Source: a virus | Direction: 5' to 3' (one strand) | Virus record (IMG/VR): IMGVR_UViG_3300003890_000023 | Location: 1 to 37,370 of that record | DNA length: 37,370 bases | Part shown: piece by piece, positions 5,001 through 36,098 of the stretch | Numbering within the stretch: the first letter of the stretch is position 1 | Layout: every line of letters begins with the position of its first letter | Notes under the pieces: generated by a model | Databases searched by the model: none | Seen by the model: the letters and a program-made list of their open reading frames with translations, nothing else | Told to the model about the DNA's origin: nothing | Translations under genes and position numbers: made by a program

Positions 5001-6065
5001 ATGGCGGCAATTGTTGTCACCGGCGCGGGTGGCCTGATCGGCGCGGAGTGCGTGCGACGATTTGGGCGGAAAGGTTATCACGTCATCGGGATTGACAACG
5101 ATACCCGCCGCGTCCTTTTCGGCACGGCCGCATCGGTGCACAAGACAATTCAGGCGCTGCGCACTGCCAGCGCAAATTACGAACATCACGATCTCGACAT
5201 CCGGGATTGCGCAGGCGTGGCGGAGTTGTTCCGGCGCAACCAGGGGCAAATTGCGGCGGTCATTCATTGCGCGGCTCAGCCGTCCCACGATTGGGCGGCA
5301 CAAGAGCCGCTTGTTGATTTTGACATCAATGCGCGCGCCACGGTGGGGCTATTAAATGCGACGAAGGCATATGCGAGCGCCGCCACGTTCGTATATCTGA
5401 GCACGAACAAAGTCTATGGCGATGCGCCGAACAGCCTGAAGTATTGTGATATCGGAACGCGCCTTGAGCCGTTCGGCGACTCGCACTCGCGGCATGACGG
5501 ATTTACCGAGGATACGCCGATTGATACGCGGCTCCATTCTCTTTTCGGCTGCTCCAAGCTGGCGGCTGATATCTATGTGCAAGAGTACGGCCTCTATTAT
5601 GGAATGAATACCGTGTGTTTTCGCGGCGGCTGTTTGACGGGGCCGGGACACGCGGGGGCAAAGCAGCACGGGTTCTTATCATATCTATTAAGATGCTGCG
5701 TTGCTGAAATGCCGTATGAAATTATCGGCTATGGCGGCAAGCAGGTCCGCGACAACATTCACGCATCCGACTTGGTGTCGGCTATTGAAATGTTTCTTGA
5801 ACACCCGAAACCTGGCGCGGTGTATAACATCGGCGGCGGGAGGGGCAATTCGTGCAGTATCCTGGAGGCTATTGCGCTGGCGGAAGAAGTGACCGGGAAA
5901 AAGATGCGGATTGCCTATCGAGAGCAGCCGCGAATCGGCGATCATATTTGGTGGATTACTAATACCGAAAAGTTTAGGACTGATTTTCCGGACTGGAAAA
6001 TCAGGAAGTCATTACGCGATATAATCGCGGAAATTGCGGAGGCATCGTTGACGGATGGCGACTAG
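5001..6065 (+). CDS. NAD-dependent epimerase/dehydratase (CDP-paratose 2-epimerase-like)
   Basis: Extended short-chain dehydrogenase/reductase of 354 residues that should act on a nucleotide sugar in the cytoplasm. The Rossmann motif TGAGGLIG lies at residues 7-14, with acidic IDND at the end of the second strand fitting NAD. The active-site region reads LFGCSKLAADIYVQEYG, with Phe where YxxxK normally has Tyr. From memory, CDP-paratose-2-epimerase-like proteins share this variant together with the following CFRGGCLTGP and QVRDNIH stretches, so I do not treat it as damage. It interrupts the head module between protease and capsid, like a moron gene, and may supply sugars for the glycosyltransferases downstream. 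Confidence 0.85.
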   Translation: MAAIVVTGAGGLIGAECVRRFGRKGYHVIGIDNDTRRVLFGTAASVHKTIQALRTASANYEHHDLDIRDCAGVAELFRRNQGQIAAVIHCAAQPSHDWAAQEPLVDFDINARATVGLLNATKAYASAATFVYLSTNKVYGDAPNSLKYCDIGTRLEPFGDSHSRHDGFTEDTPIDTRLHSLFGCSKLAADIYVQEYGLYYGMNTVCFRGGCLTGPGHAGAKQHGFLSYLLRCCVAEMPYEIIGYGGKQVRDNIHASDLVSAIEMFLEHPKPGAVYNIGGGRGNSCSILEAIALAEEVTGKKMRIAYREQPRIGDHIWWITNTEKFRTDFPDWKIRKSLRDIIAEIAEASLTDGD

Positions 6066-8549: not shown

Positions 8550-8633
8550 GCGGGCGGCGGACAAAGTCTCGCCCTGACCCACAGGCGATTTGGCGTTTGC
8601 CGCCCGCTTTGTACGACCGTTCCCTGTGGGTCA
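8550..8633 (+). other. Interleaved inverted repeats (possible RNA pseudoknot)
   Basis: Two perfect complementary pairs occur in A-B-A'-B' order. GCGGGCGGC at 8550-8558 pairs with GCCGCCCGC at 8599-8607, and TGACCCACAGG at 8575-8585 pairs with CCTGTGGGTCA at 8623-8633. A third pair, ACAAAG at 8561-8566 with CTTTGT at 8607-8612, is also interleaved. Such order cannot form two nested hairpins but can form an H-type pseudoknot or alternative structures. The last arm ends 17 bases before the ATG of the next gene, so translational control is a reasonable inference. Confidence 0.5.
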
Positions 8634-8649
8634 TGATGTGGGTCACAGT

Positions 8650-10512
8650 ATGCTCGCCACCTCCGATATGCCGAGCGCCGCTCCGAAGGCAGAGGAGCGC
8701 GCGCGTGAGTTTCGCGAGCGGCCCGCCGGCAACGACCTGAAAGACCTGATCCCGAATCCGCGCGTCGTGTTGGATTGCGGAGCGGGCGCGGGTGGGTTTG
8801 CAACAGCGGCGTTTACGATTTGGCCGAATTGCACCGTCCATTCCTTTGAGCCGGCACAGCGGTTCAACTCAATTTTAACGCCGCTGAACGCACGGCATTT
8901 TGTGCATCGTGTCGCCCTCGGCGAATCGGATCGGCTCGGCACTCTTAACTGCACCGTCGGCCCGGAGTCTAATTCACTGCTCGGCTCCGTGCCTGGCGGA
9001 CCGATGGAAAAAAGTCATCGACCAATCGGCACTGAAGAGGTCGAGGTATGCGCGCTTGATTCCATCGTCGCCGAGGGGATCGAACAAGTTGATTTACTCA
9101 AGGTCGATGTGCAGGGCGCAGAATTACTGGTGCTGCAAGGAGCAAAGGAGGTCATTAGGGCATCTCGCCCTGTGATCTATTGCGCGGTAGCATTCCAATC
9201 TCTATATCAGGACCAGCCGCTATTAGATACCGTCGATGAATATCTGGAATTCTTGGGTTATCGGCGGCTCTATTTGTATGCGTCTCCAATGCCTGATCTA
9301 TGTGGTAATGCGATTTACGTGCCGAAGGAATATCGCGTACCGGGACCTCCGATTCGCCTTAATATCGGCGCGGGCGACGTTGTAATTCCTGGATTCACGG
9401 CGATTGACCGCAAGTTCGGCACGGAAGCCTTCCCTCTGGAATATGCGAATGATGCCGTCGAGGAAATCCGCTGCGTGCATATGCTGGAGCATCTATCGTA
9501 TCGCGATGTTGATTTGGCGCTGAAGGAATGGTATCGCGTGCTGAAGCCGGGCGGTCGCCTCCGGGTGAGCGTGCCCGATGTCCCCAAAGTCGCCCGCATG
9601 TTGGATGACGAGACCTATGACCCAATGTGGCGATTCTACTTATTCGGCGGCCAGACTGATGATAACGATTTTCACCGGGCCGGCTTTGATGCCCGCGTGC
9701 TGAGCAAGTATTTGACGGCGGCGGGATTCGAGCGAGTGCGCCCGTGGACGTCTGAGAATACAGACCTCGCGGCGGCGGCATTTTCACTAAATCTTGAGGC
9801 ATATAAGCCGGCCGAGACCCGGCCGCAGGATGAAGTGGAAGTCAAGATTCGCGCTGTGTGTGGTATGCCGCGCGTCGGGTGGAACGATTCGTGGCAATCG
9901 TTTATTGATGCGCTTAAGCCATTCGGCATTCCAATTGAGACGCATCAAGGATGTTTCTGGTGGCAGAATATGCAATGCGCATTATCGCGCGCGCTACGAG
10001 ACGGCATCGACTGGGTGGTTACGCTCGATTATGATTCAATGATTCTGCCGCACCATGTCCGGCGATTGCTTGATATCATGTCGAAATATCCGCATATCGA
10101 CGCCGTCGCCGCGCTGCAAATGCGTCGCGGTGCGGAAACGCCGCTCTTCTCCACTGGCAAAGCAACTGCCGAAATCAACGGCGAACCAATCAGGGTCAAC
10201 ACGGCGCATTTCGGATTGACCGTACTGCGCGTTGCGAAATTGGCGGCGGTTCCCAAACCGTGGCTAATCGACGAACCCGACGCCGATGGGGAATTCACGG
10301 GAAATCATGTCGATGCAGATATCACATTCTGGAAGAAATGGACGGCAGCAGGTAATACGATTTACATCGCGCCGGACGTGCGTATCGGACATCTGGAATT
10401 ATTGGTCTCGGAATTCGACGAAAATTATGAGCCGCAGCATTACCAAATCGGCAAATGGTGGAACATGCACGCGCAAAAGGGCCACTGCAATCGAACAGTG
10501 AAGGGGACATGA
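8650..10512 (+). CDS. Three-domain FkbM methyltransferase / SAM methyltransferase / glycosyltransferase-like protein
   Basis: A 620-residue fusion. Domain 1 (about residues 30-220) is an FkbM-type methyltransferase: SAM-site VLDCGAGAGGF near 37 and VDLLKVDVQGAELLVLQGA near 147. Domain 2 (about 235-385) is a class I methyltransferase: NIGAGDVVIPGFTAID, CVHMLEHLSY and YRVLKPGGRLRVSVPDV. Domain 3 (about 395-610) resembles a GT-A glycosyltransferase, with WVVTLDYDSMI giving a DxD-like site near 460. It probably modifies sugars on virions or host glycans. I choose the ATG at 8650; an earlier TTG at 8590 would run through the inverted-repeat region, and no clear ribosome site decides between them. 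It lies between head and connector genes and overlaps the next ATG. Confidence 0.8.
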   Translation: MLATSDMPSAAPKAEERAREFRERPAGNDLKDLIPNPRVVLDCGAGAGGFATAAFTIWPNCTVHSFEPAQRFNSILTPLNARHFVHRVALGESDRLGTLNCTVGPESNSLLGSVPGGPMEKSHRPIGTEEVEVCALDSIVAEGIEQVDLLKVDVQGAELLVLQGAKEVIRASRPVIYCAVAFQSLYQDQPLLDTVDEYLEFLGYRRLYLYASPMPDLCGNAIYVPKEYRVPGPPIRLNIGAGDVVIPGFTAIDRKFGTEAFPLEYANDAVEEIRCVHMLEHLSYRDVDLALKEWYRVLKPGGRLRVSVPDVPKVARMLDDETYDPMWRFYLFGGQTDDNDFHRAGFDARVLSKYLTAAGFERVRPWTSENTDLAAAAFSLNLEAYKPAETRPQDEVEVKIRAVCGMPRVGWNDSWQSFIDALKPFGIPIETHQGCFWWQNMQCALSRALRDGIDWVVTLDYDSMILPHHVRRLLDIMSKYPHIDAVAALQMRRGAETPLFSTGKATAEINGEPIRVNTAHFGLTVLRVAKLAAVPKPWLIDEPDADGEFTGNHVDADITFWKKWTAAGNTIYIAPDVRIGHLELLVSEFDENYEPQHYQIGKWWNMHAQKGHCNRTVKGT

Positions 10513-18000: not shown

Positions 18001-18056
18001 GATATCCTCGCTTTCAACGCTAATCCTAACCCCGCTCTGATTCGGTGGCAAGCAAA

Positions 18057-20450
18057 ATGTTCCCACTTTGTCATCAGTCCGGCGCAATCAGCGAATGCGG
18101 CAAGCGCATGTGCCGCCTGAATGACGACCGGCGATGGGTCACGCTGGACACCTGCTTGGCATGTCCGTATGCCGTCGCAATCGCCGATGCAGACCTCGTG
18201 CCGATTTGCTCGCCGCCGTTGGTGGAGTCGCAATACTGCCGCCATCGCGGACCAGTAATCAGGACGCTCCCGTGCGAACTCTGCGGCGCAACCGTGGCCA
18301 AAGGACAACAAGTCCCTGTCTATCACTGTGCGCTGCATGGCGAGTGCGCCACGATCCGGTTCCGCCAACTCGGCCAACCTCGCATCTGTGGGACGTGCGA
18401 AGATTTCTGCGATGTCAGACGCGCGCAGTTCCCGGACCTCACCGGCCCGGCGAACCTGATGATGTGCATATATCCGCGCGCGGAGGCGCGAGAAATCTGG
18501 AAGGCGCAGCAGGAGCGTATCCGGATGGCCATCGGCACATTCGACGGTCTTAAGCTGTGCGCTGTCGCGTATGATGACACGACGGCCGAAGAAGAGATCG
18601 ACGAATCGCTGTGGGATGAGGTAGTGCGCATCCCGAATGATCCCGCGCAATGGGAGTTGCCCGGCTGGCGTTGGGCGATGACCAGGCTGAAGGAGCAGCC
18701 CGGATTCACCGTCCGACTGCACGCGAAAGGGGTCGTGCGCGGCATCTGCGAGCAGCATACGAAACGATGGTGGGAGCTAGGGTATGATGCGCTGCTCGAC
18801 GTAGAGGCGGTGCGCGAAAGCCTAAAAACGTCAGTCATCACCGGCGCGTTTCGCCGGAATGACGCCACGGCTGCAATGGAGTGGCACTATACCGGATCGT
18901 TTTACGCGTTTCGCAACGCCGAGGTGTTTGCGCGAAACTGGGAACCGGAATGGCATGGACCGGCCGATCATTACGTCGAGGCATGGCCGTCTCTAATAGC
19001 CGAGAAGTCGCGTGCCAACTGCCTAGCATTCGACGGCGTCGGGAACCTATACGATCACCGCGCATGGCGACAGACCTCGGCAAAAGCCCCCCCTGTGGTC
19101 CGCCCCATAGCGCCGGTTGCTGTTTGTGCAATATCTCACAACTACGGCCACTATTTGGCGGAATGTGTGCGATCTGTCGAACAGTCCACTGTGCGGCCGG
19201 CCGAAATCATAATTGTCGATGATGCCTCAGACGATAACACTGAGGAAGTCGGCAAGTCGATGGGCTATCCTTATATCCGGCACGACGCGCGCAACGTCCA
19301 CGAATCTCGGAAGTTGGGCTATCAAAACACGACAGCAAAATATCTTTGTTTTCTGGATGCTGACGACAAGCTGCTGCCAGACTATCTGGCCAACGCCGTG
19401 AATATCATGGAGGCCGACGGATCAATCGGAATCGTCTTTTCAGACCTCCAGGAGTTCGGCGATTCCCGCGAACTGCGGCGACACGATCCCGGCGCGGAAA
19501 TCGAGAGAGCCAATAACTACCACGCCGGAAGCGTGGTGCGCCGCGCGGCATTGGAGTCGTCCGGCGCATTGCGCGATCAGTTTGCGGCTGGCCAGTCCTG
19601 GCTCGATTGGATCGTGTGGCGACAAGTCGTGCGCGCCGGCTGGAAGACGGCGAAGAATCCAACGCCGTATCTTTATCGGCGGCACAGCCGGTCCATGAGC
19701 GTGGCCAATCGCGGTTGCGCCTATTGGGACTATGCGCAGCTAGCGCGCGAACACGTCGCAATCATCATTCCGCTGTCCGGCAGGCCGAACTCGGTAAAAC
19801 GCCTTATCGGATGGCTACGCGGTCAGACATGGCCGCATGAGCAATGCCGATTGTTGCTGGCGGACACCGTGGCGGGGGGCCGCCTGGGTTGGCAGATCGC
19901 ACAATGGATCAGCGCGGACTACCCGAACATCCGCGTCCAATCTCTGCCGATTGGTCGCCCCGGATTGGCGGATGATGACCGTGTGCGATGCAGCCGCGAG
20001 GTGCAATCCGCAATGGCGGAGCTATATGCGAAACTGCGCATGATGACGGACACCGAATACAACCTGATCATCGAAGATGACGTTCTACCGCCGTGCGACG
20101 CCATCGAAAAATTATTGCGGGGAATGGATCACTCGGTCGCGGCAGTAACCGGTGTTGGCTGGAGTCGCTTCGCGCAATGGTATGTCGCATGGATTCGCGA
20201 TGGACTGCGGCATTTGACGACGCTCGGCAAGGGCATTGAGACCATCGACGGCTGTTGGTTCGGTTGTACGTTGATTCGCCGATCCGCGCTGCTTGCCGCG
20301 CCGATGACGACGGACGGCCGTAGCGGAAATTTCGATTATGCGTTTTTCGACTGGCTGGCCGCGCATAGCTGGGAGTGCCGCATCAATTGGGACGTGCTCT
20401 GCGACCACGCGGGATTGATGGCGGACGAGCCGTGGCGACCGAGACAATAA
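18057..20450 (+). CDS. Large multidomain glycosyltransferase with N-terminal zinc-ribbon-like region
   Basis: About 797 residues. The N-terminus has many Cys/His pairs (CLACP, CELCG, HCALHGEC, CGTCEDFC) and probably binds zinc. Residues about 135-340 form an unrecognised domain with a GT-like flavour (LKLCAVAYDD, GSFYAFRNAEVF). Residues about 350-555 are a family 2 glycosyltransferase: VCAISHNYGHYLAECVRSVE, EIIIVDDASDDNT, and the DxD-like LDADDK near 433. Residues about 565-797 are another GT-A domain: VAIIIPLSGRPNSVKRLIGW and YNLIIEDDVLPP near 670. A GTG at 18045 is an alternative start. It probably glycosylates virion proteins or host surface molecules. Confidence 0.82.
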   Translation: MFPLCHQSGAISECGKRMCRLNDDRRWVTLDTCLACPYAVAIADADLVPICSPPLVESQYCRHRGPVIRTLPCELCGATVAKGQQVPVYHCALHGECATIRFRQLGQPRICGTCEDFCDVRRAQFPDLTGPANLMMCIYPRAEAREIWKAQQERIRMAIGTFDGLKLCAVAYDDTTAEEEIDESLWDEVVRIPNDPAQWELPGWRWAMTRLKEQPGFTVRLHAKGVVRGICEQHTKRWWELGYDALLDVEAVRESLKTSVITGAFRRNDATAAMEWHYTGSFYAFRNAEVFARNWEPEWHGPADHYVEAWPSLIAEKSRANCLAFDGVGNLYDHRAWRQTSAKAPPVVRPIAPVAVCAISHNYGHYLAECVRSVEQSTVRPAEIIIVDDASDDNTEEVGKSMGYPYIRHDARNVHESRKLGYQNTTAKYLCFLDADDKLLPDYLANAVNIMEADGSIGIVFSDLQEFGDSRELRRHDPGAEIERANNYHAGSVVRRAALESSGALRDQFAAGQSWLDWIVWRQVVRAGWKTAKNPTPYLYRRHSRSMSVANRGCAYWDYAQLAREHVAIIIPLSGRPNSVKRLIGWLRGQTWPHEQCRLLLADTVAGGRLGWQIAQWISADYPNIRVQSLPIGRPGLADDDRVRCSREVQSAMAELYAKLRMMTDTEYNLIIEDDVLPPCDAIEKLLRGMDHSVAAVTGVGWSRFAQWYVAWIRDGLRHLTTLGKGIETIDGCWFGCTLIRRSALLAAPMTTDGRSGNFDYAFFDWLAAHSWECRINWDVLCDHAGLMADEPWRPRQ

Positions 20451-24437: not shown

Positions 24438-24671
24438 ATGCTCGTGCTTAGCAGGAGGCCAGGCGAAGCGATTGTCATTGGTGAAAAATTAGGGGCGGTT
24501 AGCAGCGGCAGGAGTATTCGCATCGTCATCAAAATTGTGGCAGTTTCCAGGGGAGGCGTGCGCAAGAGCGGAAAGGTCAGGCTCGCCATCGACGCGCCGA
24601 AGGAGATGTCCATCGTCCGCGAGGAATGCGGCGACGGTCGCAGCAAGGGTGAAATAATCACGGGCGGTTAG
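24438..24671 (+). CDS. csrA: Phage-encoded CsrA homologue with an insertion
   Basis: A 77-residue RNA-binding regulator. MLVLSRRPGEAIVIGEKL is the diagnostic CsrA N-terminus, with Leu4 and Arg6 at the RNA-contact strand, and VRLAIDAPKEMSIVREE carries the conserved APKE and the RNA-binding Arg of xREE. Between them the protein is longer than usual: EKLGAVSSGRSIRIVIKIVA, then VSRGGVRKSG, replaces the compact strand-turn-strand, so an insertion of roughly 8-14 residues is present. The extra DNA coincides with a CRISPR-repeat-like segment. AAGGAAG precedes the ATG. It may reprogram host mRNA translation or regulate its own transcript. Confidence 0.88.
   Translation: MLVLSRRPGEAIVIGEKLGAVSSGRSIRIVIKIVAVSRGGVRKSGKVRLAIDAPKEMSIVREECGDGRSKGEIITGG
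24474..24508 (+). repeat. CRISPR-repeat-like sequence inside csrA
   Basis: The segment contains GGTGAAAAATTA exactly as in the array repeat, then GGGGCGGTTAGCAG against TGGGCAGTTAGCAG. Over about 30 bases there are three mismatches and one inserted base. It has the same orientation as the arrays and encodes IGEKLGAVSS, the part of CsrA that departs from the family. It lies about 440 bases before array 1. Confidence 0.75.
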
Positions 24672-24836
24672 TGTGTGTGCTGGGCGGAACGAGAATGCGA
24701 AATAAACGGGAGCGTGCGAAGGGGCCGACCTGCCGGCCCAAGGCGAGAATAGCTGGGGACTCCGAGAGCCTTGTAGCGCTCGCCGAATCTGCCCACCCTC
24801 GGCTCGGTTCGCCGGGCCGAGGGTTTTTGGAACTCG
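24672..24836. other. Stretch between csrA and the CRISPR island
   Basis: No convincing gene. A frame is open on the + strand and continues into the duplicated cas 3' end (to 24940), so it could encode a short fusion peptide, but the 5' part has no recognisable features. A terminator sits at 24796-24828. Confidence 0.4.
24796..24828 (+). terminator. Rho-independent terminator before CRISPR array 1
   Basis: CCCTCGGCTCGG at 24796-24807 pairs with CCGGGCCGAGGG at 24812-24823 (one G-T pair) around TTCG, followed by TTTTT. It should stop transcription from csrA just before the duplicated leader, so array 1 is expected to have its own promoter or depend on readthrough. Confidence 0.75.
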
Positions 24837-24978
24837 ATCCGCGAGAGGTCGGCGGAAATGTGGAGAAAACCGAGGCCAAAAATGGAACCGTTCGCAACGC
24901 GGCGCGCAAGCGGAAGGCCAGTGCGGGCTTGCACGGCTAAGGGTCGCAATGGGTGAAAAATTATGGGCAGTTAGCAGG
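24837..24978 (+). repeat. 142-bp direct repeat, copy 1 (leader of array 1)
   Basis: Identical by eye to 26491-26632. It comprises 106 bases of leader plus the first 36 bases of the first repeat of the array. In this copy the frame of the cas C-terminus (PREVGGNVEKTEAKNGTVRN to the stop at 24938-24940) is present without the rest of the gene, so it looks like the remnant of a duplicated cas 3' end. Confidence 0.9.
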
Positions 24979-25195
24979 GTCATCGTCTTTTGGCGCCACC
25001 ATGCGCGCCAACTCGTCGCAATGGGTGAAAAATTATGGGCAGTTAGCAGGGTCCCTCGCCAGGGCCTCGGCCGCCTGGTTGTTGACGTCGCAATGGGTGA
25101 AAAATTATGGGCAGTTAGCAGGGCGGGGATCAATGACGGGAATCGACGCCAACGCCTTGTCGCAATGAGTGAAAAATTATGGGCAGTTAGCAGGG
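24943..25195 (+). CRISPR. CRISPR array 1: 4 repeats, 3 spacers
   Basis: Repeats of 37 bases at 24943-24979, 25015-25051, 25087-25123 and 25159-25195, beginning GTCGCAATGGGTGAAAAATT and ending ATGGGCAGTTAGCAGGG. All three spacers are 35 bases. The first three repeats are identical and the last has one change (ATGAGT for ATGGGT), so the right end looks leader-distal. The repeat has little internal self-complementarity. The cas-like gene starts 28 bases after the last repeat. Short open frames through the repeats are by-products of the 72-base period. Confidence 0.95.
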
Positions 25196-25223
25196 TGGCG
25201 CGGGGCAGCAAGGGGGAACAATC

Positions 25224-26594
25224 ATGGGCAATGTGAAGGCGGGGCAGTTAGCAGGGGTGAGAGTTGTCACGCTCGAAATCTCCGGGCTGACGAAGGATGA
25301 CATCGCACGATGGCGTGCGCTGATGGACGACTGTCGCGGCATCGTCAACTGCACCTGGCAGACTTGGCTCGTGTGGCACGTGCAGAACGGCACGCGGGCA
25401 AAGCTGCAAGCATATCTTGCGGAGGCCAAGGCATGGCACGAAGGCGGGAAGCAGGGCAAGAAACCGGAATGGCCGGTGAAAGCCGTGACGCCGGAGTGCG
25501 CGAAGCTAACGTATGACGAGGTCAGCGCCGCGTTCCCGTATATCGAGACGACGGCCCGCGAATTGTGCCGGAATGCGGTGATCCAAAAGATCAACAACAC
25601 GAAGGCGGCGCACGGATCGCTTTCCGGTTGGGTTGCGATTTTATTGCATCGTCAGTCCCTGCCATCCACCGTGCGCAGCGTGCCGATTCCATTCAGCAAG
25701 CGGAACGCGATCATCGAACCGCCGGACCCTGCAGACGAAAACGGTTGCTGGAAACTGCACGTCAAGGTGACACGGCGCCCTCGGCCCGGCAAGAAAGCCG
25801 GCGAGACCGTAACCGACACAGTGAAGCTGTGGAGCAAAGGTCGCAAGGCCGCGTCGGCGGTGGCAACGCTGAAGAAGATTGCGGCCGGCGTCTATGAATT
25901 CTGCGGCTCACAAATTATCTACAAAGAATCCCGCCGCAAGTGGTTCGCTGCGATCTGCTATCGCGCGTCAATCGAGCCGCCGAAAAAACTCGACAAGGAG
26001 CAGGTCGCGTATCTGCGCCCCGCGCCAATGTCCGCTACTTGGCCTCACCCGTGGCGATTGCGCGTCCCCGGCGCGAATCGCGCTCCGGGAGGATGCGGCG
26101 ACTGGATTGCCTCAGTCCGCCGACGGATTTTCGCGGAGCGTCGCAGCCGGCAAAATAGCTATCGTTATGCGGGGTCGGCGAACAAGGGGCATGGCCGAGA
26201 GCGCGCCTTGCGACCGATCTGGCGATTGCAAAATCGCTGGAAGGACTCTGTGAAAACATACAACTATACGGTCGCGAAGGACGTGGTCGATCAGTGCGTG
26301 GCGCGCGGCATAGGCCGGCTCGTGTATTTCCAGCCGGGCGACAGAGTGCGGGACTCTCGATTCTTGACGGTGAGCGGATGCGGCGAGGGCGATCACTGGG
26401 CCGGCTGGGACTACTACCAGATCGGCAAGCGATTGGCGGACCTGTGCCAGGCGCAGGGGATCGACTTTGTCTGGCGCAAGCCATCCGAGCATCCGCGAGA
26501 GGTCGGCGGAAATGTGGAGAAAACCGAGGCCAAAAATGGAACCGTTCGCAACGCGGCGCGCAAGCGGAAGGCCAGTGCGGGCTTGCACGGCTAA
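25224..26594 (+). CDS. Compact Cas12/TnpB-like protein, RuvC catalytic residues apparently absent
   Basis: 456 residues between two arrays. The N-terminus has the WED/REC pattern of TnpB and small Cas12 proteins: VRVVTLEISGL, helices to about residue 130, then LLHRQSLPSTVRSVPIPFSK near 139-158 and RRKWFAAICYRA near 237. The RuvC-like half follows: SANKGHGRERA near 318, WKDSVKTYNYTVAKDVVDQC, GRLVYFQP near 363 and WDYYQIGKRLADLC near 395. Where active enzymes have GIDxG, IxxEDL and a C-terminal DxNAA after a CxxC zinc finger, this protein has VAYLRPAPMS, LVYFQP and no zinc finger. I infer guide-directed DNA binding without cutting. AAGGGGG precedes the ATG by seven bases. Subtype cannot be assigned. 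Confidence 0.8.
   Translation: MGNVKAGQLAGVRVVTLEISGLTKDDIARWRALMDDCRGIVNCTWQTWLVWHVQNGTRAKLQAYLAEAKAWHEGGKQGKKPEWPVKAVTPECAKLTYDEVSAAFPYIETTARELCRNAVIQKINNTKAAHGSLSGWVAILLHRQSLPSTVRSVPIPFSKRNAIIEPPDPADENGCWKLHVKVTRRPRPGKKAGETVTDTVKLWSKGRKAASAVATLKKIAAGVYEFCGSQIIYKESRRKWFAAICYRASIEPPKKLDKEQVAYLRPAPMSATWPHPWRLRVPGANRAPGGCGDWIASVRRRIFAERRSRQNSYRYAGSANKGHGRERALRPIWRLQNRWKDSVKTYNYTVAKDVVDQCVARGIGRLVYFQPGDRVRDSRFLTVSGCGEGDHWAGWDYYQIGKRLADLCQAQGIDFVWRKPSEHPREVGGNVEKTEAKNGTVRNAARKRKASAGLHG
25242..25256 (+). repeat. Partial CRISPR repeat inside the cas start
   Basis: GGGCAGTTAGCAGGG, the last 15 bases of the array repeat, is repeated exactly as codons about 7-11 of the cas-like gene. Just upstream, AATCATGGGCA resembles the repeat's AATTATGGGCA, so the start region looks like a repeat split by a 13-base insertion. 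Confidence 0.75.
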
Positions 26595-26632
26595 GGGTCG
26601 CAATGGGTGAAAAATTATGGGCAGTTAGCAGG
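26491..26632 (+). repeat. 142-bp direct repeat, copy 2 (cas 3' end and leader of array 2)
   Basis: Identical by eye to 24837-24978. Here the first 104 bases encode the last 34 residues of the Cas12-like protein and its stop, and array 2 starts two bases later. The leader of array 2 is therefore protein-coding. The two copies probably arose by duplication of a cas-array junction. Confidence 0.9.
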
Positions 26633-27422
26633 AGCGAACCCATCGCCCGATAGACGGCCTTCCCGCCGTCGCAATGGGTGAAAAATTATGGGCAGTTAGC
26701 AGGGGCAATGGCAGCGAATGCGAGGTCGTCCAGTTCCGGCGTCGCAATGGGTGAAAAATTATGGGCAGTTAGCAGGGCGAGTGATGCAGGCGGACCTGGA
26801 CCTATTTCTGGGCGTCGCAATGGGTGAAAAATTATGGGCAGTTAGCAGGGGGAAAACGGCCAAAAAAATTTTTTGGTTAGGTCGCGTCGCAATGGGTGAA
26901 AAATTATGGGCAGTTAGCAGGGCTCGGCTCGTGGATGGCGGCGGGCGGTACGTCGCGTCGCAATGGGTGAAAAATTATGGGCAGTTAGCAGGGTGCATAT
27001 GGTCATAGGTCGATATCTCCGGCCGTCGGGTCGCAATGGGTGAAAAATTATGGGCAGTTAGCAGGGTCGCGCTGACGGCGTTTCTGTTGTTTTGCGGACT
27101 TGTCGCAATGGGTGAAAAATTATGGGCAGTTAGCAGGGAAGAGGCGTCGGTTGCGCGTCCCCAACTGCGTCGGGTCGCAATGGGTGAAAAATTATGGGCA
27201 GTTAGCAGGGCGACATAGACCGCGCGATACGCCGGCACGGCGAGTCGCAATGGGTGAAAAATTATGGGCAGTTAGCAGGAGGGCCAAGGCACGCTGCCGG
27301 GCCGGAAGCGACGTCGCAATGGGTGAAAAATTATGGGCAATTAGCAGGGATTTATCCGAGATCACGGCCTTTCAGTGCTGGGCATGTCGCAATGGGTGAA
27401 AAATTATTGGCAGTTAGCATGG
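26597..27422 (+). CRISPR. CRISPR array 2: 12 repeats, 11 spacers
   Basis: Repeats start at 26597, 26668, 26741, 26814, 26886, 26957, 27030, 27102, 27174, 27244, 27313 and 27386. Each is 37 bases with the sequence of array 1; two have A instead of G at position 37, so the core may be 36. Spacers vary from 32 to 36 bases and are all different. The last two repeats are degenerate (GCAATTAGC at 27313; TTGGC and GCATGG at 27386), which places the leader on the left. The arrays carry no cas1 or cas2 nearby. Confidence 0.97.
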
Positions 27423-27715
27423 TGGGCAGTGCACAGGGGCGGGAGGCGCTAGCCGCGTGCCGCTTATGCCAGCGACCCATCGTGCAGAAAAACGGACGAC
27501 CGATCTACTGTCGCGAGTGCGGCCGTCCGCGACTCATTCAGTTCTCGCGACGCCTAGAAAAGGAATTCCAAAATGACGACAATGACGGTCTCGACAAAAA
27601 CGAAATCCGCCGCCGCATCCTGGAAGAGGCTGCTCACCGAAGCCGAGACGCTGCGGGGGAAATCGGGCCTGGCCGCGCATCGACGCGCCAGGATTCTCTG
27701 CACGCTCTACGATGA
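27419..27715 (+). CDS. Small zinc-ribbon-like protein, doubtful
   Basis: A 98-residue frame whose ATG is created by the mutated end of the last CRISPR repeat. It contains CRLCQRPIVQKNGRPIYCRE and CGRPRLIQF, a plausible four-Cys zinc ribbon near residues 15-35. The second half overlaps the next gene by 143 bases and looks less protein-like. No ribosome site precedes the ATG, so a later start or a shorter real protein is possible. The zinc ribbon itself supports coding. Confidence 0.4.
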   Translation: MVGSAQGREALAACRLCQRPIVQKNGRPIYCRECGRPRLIQFSRRLEKEFQNDDNDGLDKNEIRRRILEEAAHRSRDAAGEIGPGRASTRQDSLHALR

Positions 27716-28181
27716 TGCCGATTTTCTGGCCGAGCGGTGCGGCAATGACCGCGATGCCATGATCGAGGTCCTCGATGAACTCACGGAAGACCTCGCACTG
27801 AGCTTCGCCGAACTGCGCGCCATGCTAGTCCATTTCCCGCACAACAAGGACTGGGCTGACGGCAGACTCACAACACTCTATAGGCGCACCCTCGCCGCCG
27901 CAAAGGAAGCGCGGCAGGAAGCGGCCGACGAATGTCCGAGACCCAGCCGGCGGCGCGTGACGATTGCGGAATACGACAGATTGGCCGGCGAAAAGCAGGA
28001 TGTTGAGGCGCGCCTGCGGTATACCGACGAACGTCTGCAAGAGGCCGCACAACGGATCGAAAAGCTCGCAAGTGAAGTTGACAAGCTGACGATTGAAAAC
28101 GCCGAGTTGCGCGGGCGTATCGCCGAACTCCAGGCCCTAATTACCCGAATGTCGGGATCGCCGAACTCTAGCAAGGGGTAA
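27573..28181 (+). CDS. Hypothetical coiled-coil protein
   Basis: A 202-residue protein with AAGGAA before the ATG. The middle is helical and acidic (FLAERCGNDRDAMIEVLDEL). Residues about 130-195 form a long coiled coil with heptad leucines and charged positions (RIEKLASEVDKLTIENAELR, GRIAELQALI). It lies at the beginning of the recombination/replication operon, directly after the arrays. I do not recognise its family. A DNA-binding or scaffold role is only a guess. Confidence 0.65.
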   Translation: MTTMTVSTKTKSAAASWKRLLTEAETLRGKSGLAAHRRARILCTLYDDADFLAERCGNDRDAMIEVLDELTEDLALSFAELRAMLVHFPHNKDWADGRLTTLYRRTLAAAKEARQEAADECPRPSRRRVTIAEYDRLAGEKQDVEARLRYTDERLQEAAQRIEKLASEVDKLTIENAELRGRIAELQALITRMSGSPNSSKG

Positions 28182-28187
28182 ATGATC

Positions 28188-28541
28188 ATGGACAGTGTGA
28201 AGGAGGGAGCACAGGTAACAGTGCTGCCGGACTACCGCCGCGAAATTGTAAGCGGCCTCATCGCAATCTGCCGTATCGACGCCGTGCGACGTGCCGACGG
28301 CCAATGGTCGCTCCTTAGACTGGTGCTGATCCACATGCGCATCACCATCGGAGACCTGGATATCTCCGCCACGACCGTAGACCCGAATGATCTGCTGAGT
28401 ATTGCGGCGTGGCTGAAATACCAATTCCTGCAGCGAATCGAGGATCGGACGACCTATGTGTACGACACCGATCTCATCGCGGCCCTGGACGCCCAGGAGG
28501 CCAAAGACCAAGCCGCTGGTGTTGTGCGGAGACCGCACTAA
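28188..28541 (+). CDS. Hypothetical protein upstream of ERF
   Basis: A 117-residue protein, MDSVKEGAQVTVLPDYRREI and onward, with regular strands (SLLRLVLIHMRITIGDLDIS) and a helical acidic tail. I use the ATG at 28188, nine bases after AAGGGG; the ATG at 28182 is also in frame. The initiation region is strikingly similar to that of the Cas12-like gene, described under findings. The function is unknown; its place before the ERF gene suggests recombination or replication. Confidence 0.6.
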   Translation: MDSVKEGAQVTVLPDYRREIVSGLIAICRIDAVRRADGQWSLLRLVLIHMRITIGDLDISATTVDPNDLLSIAAWLKYQFLQRIEDRTTYVYDTDLIAALDAQEAKDQAAGVVRRPH

Positions 28542-28708: not shown

Positions 28709-29294
28709 CAGCCGGTATGCCGACCTGGCCTCAGTGTGGGCCGCGTGCCGACAGGCGTTGAGTTCTAACGGACTCTCAGTCGTACAGATTCCGAGGATTG
28801 AATTTCTCGGAGAGCCGGAATTCCGCACGCTCAAAACTCGCAATGGCGACGAGAGGCTTGAGGTCCAGGCCGTCACGAAAATTGCGGTCATCACTCGGCT
28901 ATTGCATGTGTCCGGCCAATGGGTCGAGTCCGAGCTGCAGTGCATGGTCCCGAAGGGCGATCCGCAATCCATCGGCTCGGCAATCACGTATCTGCGGCGC
29001 TATTCACTCGCCCCGCTCGTGGGTGTCGTCGCAGAGGAAGACGACGACGGCAACGCCGCAAGCCAAGCGACGCTGAACGGCGGGGCCACAGCAAGAGCCG
29101 TCACGCCGCAAATGCCCCCAGAGCAGAAAGCATTCAATCAATGGATTGCGCCATTCATCGATAGCAGAAAGATCACGCGCGATGAAGTGCGCGGCATCCT
29201 GGAAGCGCACCAGCACGACTATGCGGCGACACGGGTTGAGATCACAAAACAATTGAAGGGCCGGGAACAGTCAGGAGCGTCTAGCAATGGGTGA
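28608..29294 (+). CDS. erf: ERF-family single-strand annealing protein
   Basis: A 228-residue recombinase. The N-terminus shows the ERF superfamily pattern: NELATALAKAQGQIHGAPKE, NPFFNSRYADLASVWAACRQ and ALSSNGLSVVQ near residues 25-60. VPKGDPQSIGSAITYLRRYS and LAPLVGVVAEEDDDGN near 108-148 complete the core. It should anneal complementary single strands in phage recombination together with the SSB downstream. The last codons (SSNG, stop) are written by a CRISPR-repeat-like sequence at 29284-29306. Confidence 0.88.
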   Translation: MKTSEQINELATALAKAQGQIHGAPKESANPFFNSRYADLASVWAACRQALSSNGLSVVQIPRIEFLGEPEFRTLKTRNGDERLEVQAVTKIAVITRLLHVSGQWVESELQCMVPKGDPQSIGSAITYLRRYSLAPLVGVVAEEDDDGNAASQATLNGGATARAVTPQMPPEQKAFNQWIAPFIDSRKITRDEVRGILEAHQHDYAATRVEITKQLKGREQSGASSNG

Positions 29295-29306
29295 AAAATC
29301 ATGGGC
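29284..29306 (+). repeat. CRISPR-repeat-like sequence at end of ERF gene
   Basis: GCAATGGGTGAAAAATCATG followed by GGC matches positions 4-26 of the array repeat with a single difference (C for T). It supplies the ERF stop TGA and contains two ATG codons, one opening a 29-codon frame (MGEKSWACRNTLVAF). Orientation is the same as the arrays. The following bases no longer resemble the repeat. Confidence 0.85.
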
Positions 29307-29397
29307 GTGCCGCAACACCCTGGTCGCGTTCAGACGCGGCAACAAATCATGGCGGAATGCACAACATCTAAAGTAACAGGACTGACGGTGGAGCAGG

Positions 29398-30300
29398 ATG
29401 CACATTACAGACGTAATCATCGACCCGGAATTTGCAAATTTTTTACCGCCAATCTCGGCCGAAGAACTCGCGGCGTTGCGGGCCAGCGTTGAGGCGCACG
29501 GATTCACCGATCCGATCATCGTCTGGATGCACCACGGCGAACTCGTGGACGGATTCCACCGCTACCGTCTTTGGCGCGATCTCGGTTGGTCCGCTGACAG
29601 AGCACCGGATATTGTCGAGCGCAAATTTCCGGACAGGGCGGCGGTGATGTCGTGGATGTTCGAGCGCCAGGCGGCCCGGCGAAACTGGACGCCAGCCCAA
29701 AAGGCGGCCGTTGGGCTGAAAATGAAGCCCGCGATTGAACAGCGGGCAAAGGCGAACCAAAAAGCGGGCGGCGGGACAAAAAACCCCGAAAAACAAGGGG
29801 AAAAAGCGCTTTTGCTACATGTAGCAAAAGCGCGTAGCCCCGTTCACACGCGCGACGAAATCGCCAAAGCGGCCGGGGTGTCGTCTGAGACCGTGCGCAA
29901 AACGGAGGTAGTTCTGAACGAGGGCGCTCCCGAAGTGAAGCAGGCATTGCTCTCCGGTCAGATGTCGGCTCGTCAGGCGTTTTCGCAGACGCGAGCAGTG
30001 TCACGCGGTACGACAGCGGGTCCGTCGGAGATCGAGGATGGGCCGGACCGGACCAATCCGGAATCCGAAAAGCAAATCGCTCATGCGGCGCGGCTGCTGG
30101 CCAGACTGTTTGCCGATTTCGGCCGCGTGCACAACGCCCTTGGCCCGCTCGTCTGTGCCTTTGATGCGATCAAAGCCGCCGATCCGAAATTCGGAAACCG
30201 ACATCGGGCGTTGCTCGGTCATCATAAGCGACTATTCGACGCAATGTCCGATGCGAAAGAGGCCTTGGATGCGCTGAAGGCCGCCTGGGTGCGCAAATAG
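29398..30300 (+). CDS. ParB-like partition/nuclease-family protein
   Basis: A 300-residue protein. The N-terminal ParB/Srx-like domain (about residues 1-95) includes ISAEELAALRASVEAHGFTD, PIIVW and GELVDGFHRYRLWRDLGW, with the conserved DGxHRYR motif near residue 52. A second part has the HTH TRDEIAKAAGVSSETVRKTE near 158-178, fitting site-specific DNA binding. The C-terminal 90 residues are helical. It may act in plasmid-like partition, transcription control or DNA processing. A perfect 28-bp palindrome lies inside the gene. GGTGGAGCAGG precedes the ATG. Confidence 0.8.
   Translation: MHITDVIIDPEFANFLPPISAEELAALRASVEAHGFTDPIIVWMHHGELVDGFHRYRLWRDLGWSADRAPDIVERKFPDRAAVMSWMFERQAARRNWTPAQKAAVGLKMKPAIEQRAKANQKAGGGTKNPEKQGEKALLLHVAKARSPVHTRDEIAKAAGVSSETVRKTEVVLNEGAPEVKQALLSGQMSARQAFSQTRAVSRGTTAGPSEIEDGPDRTNPESEKQIAHAARLLARLFADFGRVHNALGPLVCAFDAIKAADPKFGNRHRALLGHHKRLFDAMSDAKEALDALKAAWVRK
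29806..29833. repeat. Perfect 28-bp palindrome inside the ParB-like gene
   Basis: GCGCTTTTGCTACA followed by its exact reverse complement, with no spacer. In protein it encodes ALLLHVAKA, between two domains of the ParB-like product. Perfect palindromes of this size are unlikely by chance and are typical of dimeric DNA-binding sites such as parS or operators. The A/T-rich TTTTGCTACA core contrasts with the GC-rich surroundings. Confidence 0.8.
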
Positions 30301-30308
30301 CAAGAGCT

Positions 30309-30332
30309 AAAAAATTGTGGGCAGTCAGCAGG
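30309..30332 (+). repeat. CRISPR-repeat-like sequence at the helicase start
   Basis: AAAAAATTGTGGGCAGTCAG followed by CAGG matches the 3' two thirds of the array repeat in 21 of 24 positions. It has the same orientation as the arrays. It lies 12 bases before the helicase ATG, and the alternative GTG start at 30317 falls exactly where the repeat has its ATG. Confidence 0.75.
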
Positions 30333-30343
30333 TGGGTGAGAAG

Positions 30344-34397: not shown

Positions 34398-35450
34398 ATG
34401 CAAGAAAGGGCACGGACGAAGCGACCGGCGTTGCGCGCCCCGTTCCCGTACTTCGGGGGGAAATCGACTGTTGCACGCGAAGTGTGGAGGCGGTTTGGAG
34501 ATGTGGTAAATTACGTCGAACCGTTTTTCGGGTCCGGAGCCGTCTTGCTTGGCAGGCCGCGCCCATTCGCGGGCGTGGAAACAGTGAACGACAAGGACGG
34601 CTTCGTCGCGAATTTCTGGCGCGCCGTGCAATCTGCGCCGGACGAGGTGGCGCATTATTCCGACTGGCCGAGCAACGAGAACGATTTGCACGCGAGGCAC
34701 GCATGGTTGGTTGGCGTCAAGGAGTCTCTGCGCGCGCGCCTTGAAGGCGATCCGGAGTGGTACGATGCCAAAATCGCCGGCTGGTGGTGCTGGGGGATGT
34801 CCTGTTGGATCGGCGGTGGATTTTGCAGCGGCGAAGGCCCGTGGTGTGTGCGCGAGGACGCGGACGGCGTGTGCCGGCTGGTCCGCGAGGTGAGCGACGG
34901 ACCAGGCGTGAAGCGTCAGCGACTCCATCTGAGTTGCGCCGGGAAAGGTGTGCAGCGACGGCTAGACGCTAACTCAGGAGACAGCGAGGCGGCCAACGGC
35001 ATCTATCAGTGGATGCGTGCATTGGCAGGCAGGCTGGGGCGGGTGCGAGTCTGCTGCGGTGATTGGTCCCGCGTCTGCGGTCCAATGGTCACGGTCCATC
35101 ACGGCCTGACGGCCGTGTTTCTTGATCCGCCTTATTCCGAGGCGGCGGGTCGCGATGGCGAGCTATACTGTGAGGAGTCGATGTCGGTGGCGCATGATGT
35201 CCGGGAGTGGGCGATTAAGTGGGGCGGCGATCCTCGGATGCGCATTGCGCTGTGCGGGTATGAGGGCGAGCACGCAATGCCGGCAGATTGGAGCGTCTTC
35301 GCATGGAAGGCGCACGGCGGCTATGCGCATCGTAGCCGCAGCAAATCGCGTGGGAAAGCGAACGCGAAGAAAGAGCGCATCTGGTTTTCGCCGCATTGCA
35401 TGATCGGGCCTGCGGAGACGCAGGCGCTGCTGTTCGGAAACGAGAATTGA
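34398..35450 (+). CDS. dam: DNA adenine N6-methyltransferase (Dam-like)
   Basis: A 350-residue class D12 methylase. SAM-binding FPYFGGKSTVAREVWRRFGD lies near residue 16, NYVEPFFGSGAVL near 38, END near 88 and the catalytic DPPYSEAAGRDGELY near 243. The middle (about residues 100-215) is an insertion with several Trp and Cys residues, which may form the DNA-target domain. It should methylate adenine in phage DNA and protect it against restriction. It is followed after nine bases by a Mom-like modification gene, so the two form a DNA-modification pair. Confidence 0.9.
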   Translation: MQERARTKRPALRAPFPYFGGKSTVAREVWRRFGDVVNYVEPFFGSGAVLLGRPRPFAGVETVNDKDGFVANFWRAVQSAPDEVAHYSDWPSNENDLHARHAWLVGVKESLRARLEGDPEWYDAKIAGWWCWGMSCWIGGGFCSGEGPWCVREDADGVCRLVREVSDGPGVKRQRLHLSCAGKGVQRRLDANSGDSEAANGIYQWMRALAGRLGRVRVCCGDWSRVCGPMVTVHHGLTAVFLDPPYSEAAGRDGELYCEESMSVAHDVREWAIKWGGDPRMRIALCGYEGEHAMPADWSVFAWKAHGGYAHRSRSKSRGKANAKKERIWFSPHCMIGPAETQALLFGNEN

Positions 35451-35459
35451 CGGCACAGT

Positions 35460-36098
35460 ATGCTGCGAGTTGGCGCAATCGAGAAACGAACCGCAGAGAG
35501 GATGGTCATAGACCACCACTATCTGCACCGCCGCGCGTCTATCGTTTACGCATTCGGGCTTTGGCAAGACGATGTTGTTCGTGGCGTCGTCACGTTCGGC
35601 ATCCCTGCCGCTCGCCACCTGCAAATGAGTGCCTGCCCGTCGAACCCGGACCTTGTGATTGAGCTTAACCGACTGTGGGTTCACGACGATATGCCCCGCA
35701 ACAGCGAAACGTGGTTTCTCGCTCGTGCGCTCGCCGCCATGCCGCCCCGGATTGTTGTCAGCTATGCGGACACTACGCGCGGGCACATGGGCTTTGTCTA
35801 TAGGGCGGCAAATTTCGACTATGCCGGCTGGACCGATATGGAGCGGAAAACACCGCGGTACGACTACCTTGCGCCGTGGAAGCACACCCGTGACGCCTTC
35901 CGGGGAGGACTTGGGGCTGCATCCGAAAAACGCCGCCGCAAGCCAAAGGTCAAATATTGGACCGTCACCGGGAATGCTAGAGAGCGCCGCGATCTGCGCA
36001 AGATTTGCGGCTGGCCGTCCCTCTCGTGGAAGGAGATGCCGCCGCCGGTTGAGCACAGGCAACAGGTTACTTGCGAGATGTTTCTCGCGGCGGAATAG
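35460..36098 (+). CDS. mom: Mom-like adenine-modification protein
   Basis: A 212-residue protein related to phage Mu Mom, which adds a carbamoyl-methyl-type group to adenine. The GNAT-like pattern is visible: VIDHHYLHRRASIVYAFGLW, VVRGVVTFGIPAARHLQ, VIELNRLWVHDDMPRN near residue 66, then PRIVVSYADTTRGHMGFVYR and AANFDYAGWT near 95-125. The basic C-terminus (GAASEKRRRKPKVKYW) may contact DNA. It follows the Dam-like gene directly, and both would hide the genome from restriction enzymes. Confidence 0.85.
   Translation: MLRVGAIEKRTAERMVIDHHYLHRRASIVYAFGLWQDDVVRGVVTFGIPAARHLQMSACPSNPDLVIELNRLWVHDDMPRNSETWFLARALAAMPPRIVVSYADTTRGHMGFVYRAANFDYAGWTDMERKTPRYDYLAPWKHTRDAFRGGLGAASEKRRRKPKVKYWTVTGNARERRDLRKICGWPSLSWKEMPPPVEHRQQVTCEMFLAAE

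Follow-up and report, generated by a model that had tools for sequence, protein, structure and literature searches.

A phage contig very probably carries a Cas12f-derived, nuclease-dead CRISPR island with two arrays, and the reading that is somewhat favoured here is that the effector works as a guide-directed binder that silences its targets. The window, the whole stretch of DNA analysed, comprises the 37,370 nucleotides of IMG/VR record IMGVR_UViG_3300003890_000023; the analysis assigns the island to phage contig IMGVR_UViG_3300010938_000084. Its left half holds terminase, portal and major head genes and its right half ERF annealase, helicase, primase-polymerase and SSB genes, with the island located between these structural and replication halves. 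A preliminary description of this DNA had reported one gene for a 456-residue protein between two arrays of the same 37-base repeat (4 and 12 copies, 14 spacers), with no cas1 or cas2. Mapping of the ORF, repeats and spacers bears this out, and neither cas1 nor cas2 was found in the contig. The island and its immediate upstream region are laid out as follows.

24720-24826, + strand: weak tracrRNA-like candidate, with a hairpin, a AAGGCGAGAA...GCGCTCGCC helix, CTGCCCA and a terminator hairpin with T5
24837-24942, + strand: second, identical copy of the effector 3' end, preceding array 1 (duplicated leader, without the full effector here)
24943-25195, + strand: CRISPR array 1, four repeats of 37 nt and three spacers
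25224-26594, + strand: predicted nuclease-dead Cas12f-like effector, 456 aa, with R265 in place of the RuvC-I acid, Q370 in place of the RuvC-II acid and a collapsed zinc-finger/RuvC-III region
26491-26596, + strand: effector gene 3' end, also the leader position of array 2, within a 142-bp exact duplication
26597-27422, + strand: CRISPR array 2, 12 repeats and 11 spacers, the last two repeats mutated internally

Elsewhere in the contig, a Mom-family DNA modification gene (35460-36098) adjoins a D12-class adenine methyltransferase gene (34398-35450), which suggests that the phage DNA is modified. Sugar-nucleotide epimerase/dehydratase, FkbM methyltransferase and glycosyltransferase genes (5001-6065, 8590-10512, 18045-20450) lie amid the structural genes.

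Both arrays occupy the same strand as the effector gene, one before it and one after it. The repeat, GTCGCAATGGGTGAAAAATTATGGGCAGTTAGCAGGG, starts at 24943, 25015, 25087 and 25159 in array 1 and at 26597, 26668, 26741, 26814, 26886, 26957, 27030, 27102, 27174, 27244, 27313 and 27386 in array 2. Eleven of the 16 copies are identical over the full 37 nt, the remaining five carrying one or two changes, and the spacers (32-36 nt) are all unique, with no mutual similarity; such identical repeats with all-different spacers appear as in a maintained array. Given that the internally mutated repeats are those at 27313 and 27386, the trailer end of array 2 is probably downstream and its leader upstream. 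The 142-bp exact direct duplication (24837-24978 and 26491-26632) spans the effector 3' end (~106 bp) and the first repeat, so that both arrays open with identical leader-position sequence; the preliminary description began at 24837, where the duplication starts, and did not report it. A terminator-like hairpin directly before array 1 counts against a working-guide reading. The nine bases at the repeat start, GTCGCAATG, and GTTAG near its 3' end are common to an array beside an intact Cas12f in another phage contig (L016; GTCGCAATGAGCGTGTAGGCGTTAGTTGCGAGA), and the start also resembles GTTGCAAT of L010 and L025. The exact repeat is absent from all other viral contigs searched.

From its sequence and predicted fold, the effector is a divergent relative of Cas12f. 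The PADLOC matches listed for it comprise only Cas12f (E 4.4e-21, residues 12-364) and Cas12u3 (E 3.8e-20), with no Cas12m profile among them, and phmmer against the PDB places it much closer in sequence to nuclease-active AsCas12f (E 6.5e-14) than to natural dCas12f (E 0.12). An AlphaFold2 model built from 14 sequences (pLDDT 68 overall, about 30-40 after residue 422) retrieves AsCas12f with Foldseek (3e-20) and scores Z 19.4 against it, above natural dCas12f (18.2), Cas12m (13) and TnpB (12.7); the whole-chain rmsd to AsCas12f is large and the domain arrangement uncertain. The profile search and structural superposition that the preliminary description had proposed therefore uphold the Cas12/TnpB relation drawn there by eye; the family it gave, compact Cas12-like, was right as to Cas12 and missed the exact kind, which is Cas12f. 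Relatives occur in Alicyclobacillus phage MMB025 (L010) and in further IMG/VR contigs, of which L015 has the MMB025 protein and L013 is the contig of the window itself; L009, taken up as a first relative, was rejected as the same contig. Identity to the relatives is 16-25%, too low to place the effector well in a phylogeny.

Judged by sequence, the effector is nuclease-dead. At RuvC-I, where relatives read LDKNRVLGIDMG, it aligns as LDKEQVAYLRP and keeps none of the three conserved columns; in the alignment of LDKNRVLGIDMGVVYPAYM with LDKEQVAYLR-----PAPM, the first acid is either R265 or deleted, depending on gap placement. At RuvC-II, IQMEDL of the relatives is matched by VYFQPG, with Q370 at the acid position. 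The zinc-finger/RuvC-III region keeps one of 19 conserved columns, with a possible D-to-E change at E432, in a C-terminal part where alignment confidence is low, the profile alignment ending at residue 364 and pLDDT falling after 422 as above. Conservation is higher elsewhere, with three of five columns kept in WED/REC and four of eight in the helical part. None of the three frames contains the DxD, E and DxNAA motifs, and no CxxC occurs in the effector frame. Thus, the earlier claims that all three acidic RuvC positions and the CxxC zinc finger are missing hold, and a frameshift restoring the triad, named there as a possible refutation, was looked for in vain: the tblastn alignments of all relatives keep to frame 0 and no other frame restores the RuvC motifs. 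A compensating frameshift pair in RuvC-I, with frame +2 reading ANVRYLASPVAIARP, was considered and rejected, as frame 0 PAPMSATWPHPWR aligns with PAYMAVNYDKYWR of the relatives and the shifted reading still has R at the acid position. Because the D-E-D triad and zinc finger are missing, the effector is best regarded as a derived, inactive relative and not as a standard V-F nuclease. Its coding-like composition and the resemblance of NVEKTEAKN/NAAR to the RuvC-III motif favour, without settling it, a genuine though degenerate C-terminus with an upstream duplicate, rather than a leader read as codons.

Substitutions at catalytic positions are also seen in two related proteins. Ruminococcus albus plasmid pRUMAL01 encodes a Cas12f-like protein annotated as TnpB (L012, 952-2313) with GVNLGV for GVDLGV, the first RuvC acid changing from D to N. 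A phage Cas12f (L014, 277-1599) has IQIRDLSG, in which the second RuvC acid changes from E to R, and degenerate repeat-like copies lie upstream of it. Together, these changes hint that inactivation recurs in this Cas12f family.

No interruption occurs in the 456 codons of the effector ORF, whose frame 0 has coding composition along nearly its whole length, and the differences from the relatives are in-frame, which suggests selection for the protein; the motif losses accordingly look tolerated or selected. In the proposed mechanism, the island would be a stripped-down, single-effector phage CRISPR system derived from subtype V-F, whose Cas12f-like effector has lost the nuclease chemistry while probably keeping guide-RNA and DNA binding. 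The two arrays would supply it with 14 guides, and the effector-guide complex would bind matching DNA without cutting it, blocking transcription or replication of competing phages, other elements or host genes. Expression, guide loading, a tracrRNA, DNA binding, silencing and the identity of the targets are all inferred. The absence of the zinc-finger domain, which in active Cas12f binds the target nucleic acid, argues against the effector being a binder.

The main rival is that the island is a decaying relic, in which nuclease and zinc finger were lost, the tracrRNA eroded and the arrays are merely left over. Loss of all three catalytic motifs together with the zinc finger would be expected from decay, as would the lack of a supported tracrRNA, the composition of the RuvC-I patch (26001-26100), which is atypical for coding sequence, and the repeat fragments scattered through neighbouring genes. 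Such decay is nonetheless unlikely, given a reading frame free of stops and frameshifts with coding composition outside that patch and the 11 identical repeats; in addition, pseudogenes are usually purged from compact phage genomes.

Cas12f needs a tracrRNA. Several relatives have a tracrRNA-like stretch, containing CGAGAAGTG...CACTCGATAAGGTAG, close to the effector; the candidate at 24720-24826 has its elements in that order too, and its CTGCCCA forms a 7-nt complement to TGGGCAG of the repeat. The motif descriptor of the candidate is matched in 2% of shuffles of that region. A covariance model that recovered the two copies of a held-out relative and another relative (40, 34 and 24 bits) gave the candidate only 5.0 bits (E 2.5, noise level), and a tracrRNA at this position is therefore taken as unproven, which weighs against the silencing reading. 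Anti-repeat searches for a tracrRNA returned nothing significant, the true repeat could not be told from shuffles by RNA duplex energy, and an Rfam search gave no match. The MMB025 locus (2202-2387 and 1897-2009) has an apparently intact Cas12f (annotated as a transposase), a small array and a tracrRNA-like region, with a different second repeat pair upstream.

With no convincing tracrRNA of the phage's own, the effector might use that of the host, and a dead effector that sequesters host crRNA or tracrRNA could shield the phage from type V defence by the host. A decoy role of this kind has been proposed for phage Cas9 with an inactive RuvC (review PMC11656645). For the present island it is improbable: a decoy has no need of 14 different spacers, and the exact repeat is absent from a GTDB-based genome collection (one genome per species, 84,980 species), though the host may be missing among these.

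Natural dCas12f systems recruit RNA polymerase or a sigma factor and activate transcription. There is only a slight chance that the phage effector does likewise, even though its model is structurally close to the solved natural dCas12f (9n9c and related entries), which has a similarly short C-terminus (365 aa). The far closer sequence match to AsCas12f speaks against activation, as does the lack of any match to a sigma region-4 domain in the contig (the sigma region searched for individually), and known activators work with few guides instead of 14-spacer arrays.

Sequences resembling the repeat also occur outside the arrays. Five sites between 24471 and 30297, all on the + strand, differ from it at no more than 13 of 37 positions; shuffled sequence yields a mean of 0.03 such sites on both strands.

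24438-24671: csrA-like gene, in which residues beyond the CsrA profile are encoded by a repeat-like segment
24471-24507, + strand: repeat-like segment inside the csrA-like gene (29/37)
25204-25240, + strand: repeat-like segment spanning the effector start codon (24/37 identity with the repeat)
28168-28204, + strand: repeat-like segment over a phage gene start (25/37; ATG 28188, in frame with ATG 28182)
29281-29317, + strand: repeat-like segment over the start codon of ORF 29301, the best match (22/23 nt with repeat positions 4-26)
30297-30333, + strand: repeat-like segment spanning the GTG with which the helicase gene begins at 30317 (28/37)

Four of the five cover a gene start (25224, 28182/28188, 29301 and 30317), the start codon falling on repeat position 21, a feature that the preliminary description did not contain. 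The 3' 15 nt of the repeat recur exactly near the effector start (25242-25256). A small zinc-ribbon-like ORF (27421-27715) seemingly begins at the last repeat (GTG GGC AGT GCA CAG GGG), and is perhaps another repeat-like gene start. As other Cas12f arrays have similar repeat ends, transfer from repeats to gene starts would be the likelier direction, perhaps by recombination. Since the effector gene and three downstream phage genes have homologues of the repeat as their ribosome-binding and start-codon region, there is a slim chance that the repeat has a second role: dead Cas12f, together with a tracrRNA-like RNA that is complementary to this region, would control early genes of the phage itself, and the arrays would be directed at rivals. 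It is highly improbable that the arrays are not guides and instead form an RNA sponge or regulatory repeat tied to the csrA-like gene and the gene-start motif: this gene adjoins the arrays and holds a repeat-like segment, and the repeat resembles four phage translation starts and itself contains ATG GGC AGT TAG, but the Cas12f effector sits between the arrays, spacer lengths have CRISPR-like regularity, the repeat ends are common to other Cas12f arrays and the repeat lacks the GGA motif of the usual CsrA site.

For guide-directed silencing, the spacers would define the targets. None beyond chance was found for them within the phage contig or the fetched loci, or in phage and plasmid collections (all E 0.8 or worse; plasmids searched with the array 2 spacers), a result that counts against the silencing reading. 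IMG/VR targets for four of the 14 spacers, each searched as a 21-nt exact stretch or codon-degenerate pattern, comprised none but self. Several spacers carry open frames, which would weakly fit capture from genes.

The closest known systems are those of subtype V-F, whose Cas12f (AsCas12f, PDB 8j12/8dzj/7wju; phages MMB025 and L016) shares its family and fold with the effector. As in the island, V-F phage loci have an array adjoining the effector in the same orientation, with similar repeat ends (GTYGCAAT... and GTTAG). However, V-F relatives keep the D-E-D triad and zinc finger, several with a recognisable tracrRNA, where the island has lost these motifs and offers a tracrRNA candidate only; unlike them, it also has arrays on both sides of the effector and a duplicated leader. 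Natural dCas12f (PDB 9n9c, 9n9m, 9n9o, 9n9q) is likewise a nuclease-dead, C-terminally reduced Cas12f of similar fold (Z 18.2). The effector is distant from it in sequence (E 0.12), resides in a phage with multi-spacer arrays and no sigma region 4 seen, and was probably inactivated independently.

Two further groups of inactive proteins invite comparison. Cas12m is larger (about 600 aa, against 456 aa for the effector) and works without a tracrRNA, and TldR proteins are TnpB-derived and use single guides. The effector, by contrast, matches Cas12f profiles and, being Cas12f-like with two CRISPR arrays, does not qualify as a TldR. Cas12m2 of subtype V-M, which has a non-canonical RuvC triad, silences by binding, which favours the silencing reading by precedent, and there are Cas12m clades whose triad is replaced by HDD and HQK (PMC10442227); the effector resembles Cas12m2 in its non-canonical RuvC and its location on a mobile element, binding-only silencing being a proposal for the island. 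TldR proteins, TnpB-like nuclease-dead repressors, are phage-borne, nuclease-dead and RNA-guided, as the island would be from its sequence (PMC13418256).

The preliminary description thus stands in its outline of a phage CRISPR island with a compact Cas12-family effector whose catalytic and zinc-finger motifs are lost, with no other frame to rescue them; its proposal of a distinct variant is reasonable, although naturally inactive Cas12m, TldR and dCas12f were already known. Cas12m, Cas12k, TnpB (TldR) and a bacterial dCas12f are known cases of proteins that lost their nuclease and were then reused as binders. If the binder reading is true, the island would be a further independent case, in which Cas12f lost its nuclease inside a phage that kept two arrays with 14 guides, and would point to phages using programmable repression, in place of cutting, as a weapon. 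The effector would then rank among the smallest natural guide-directed DNA binders with an array of their own, and its loss of the zinc-finger region would make the minimal requirements for R-loop binding directly testable.
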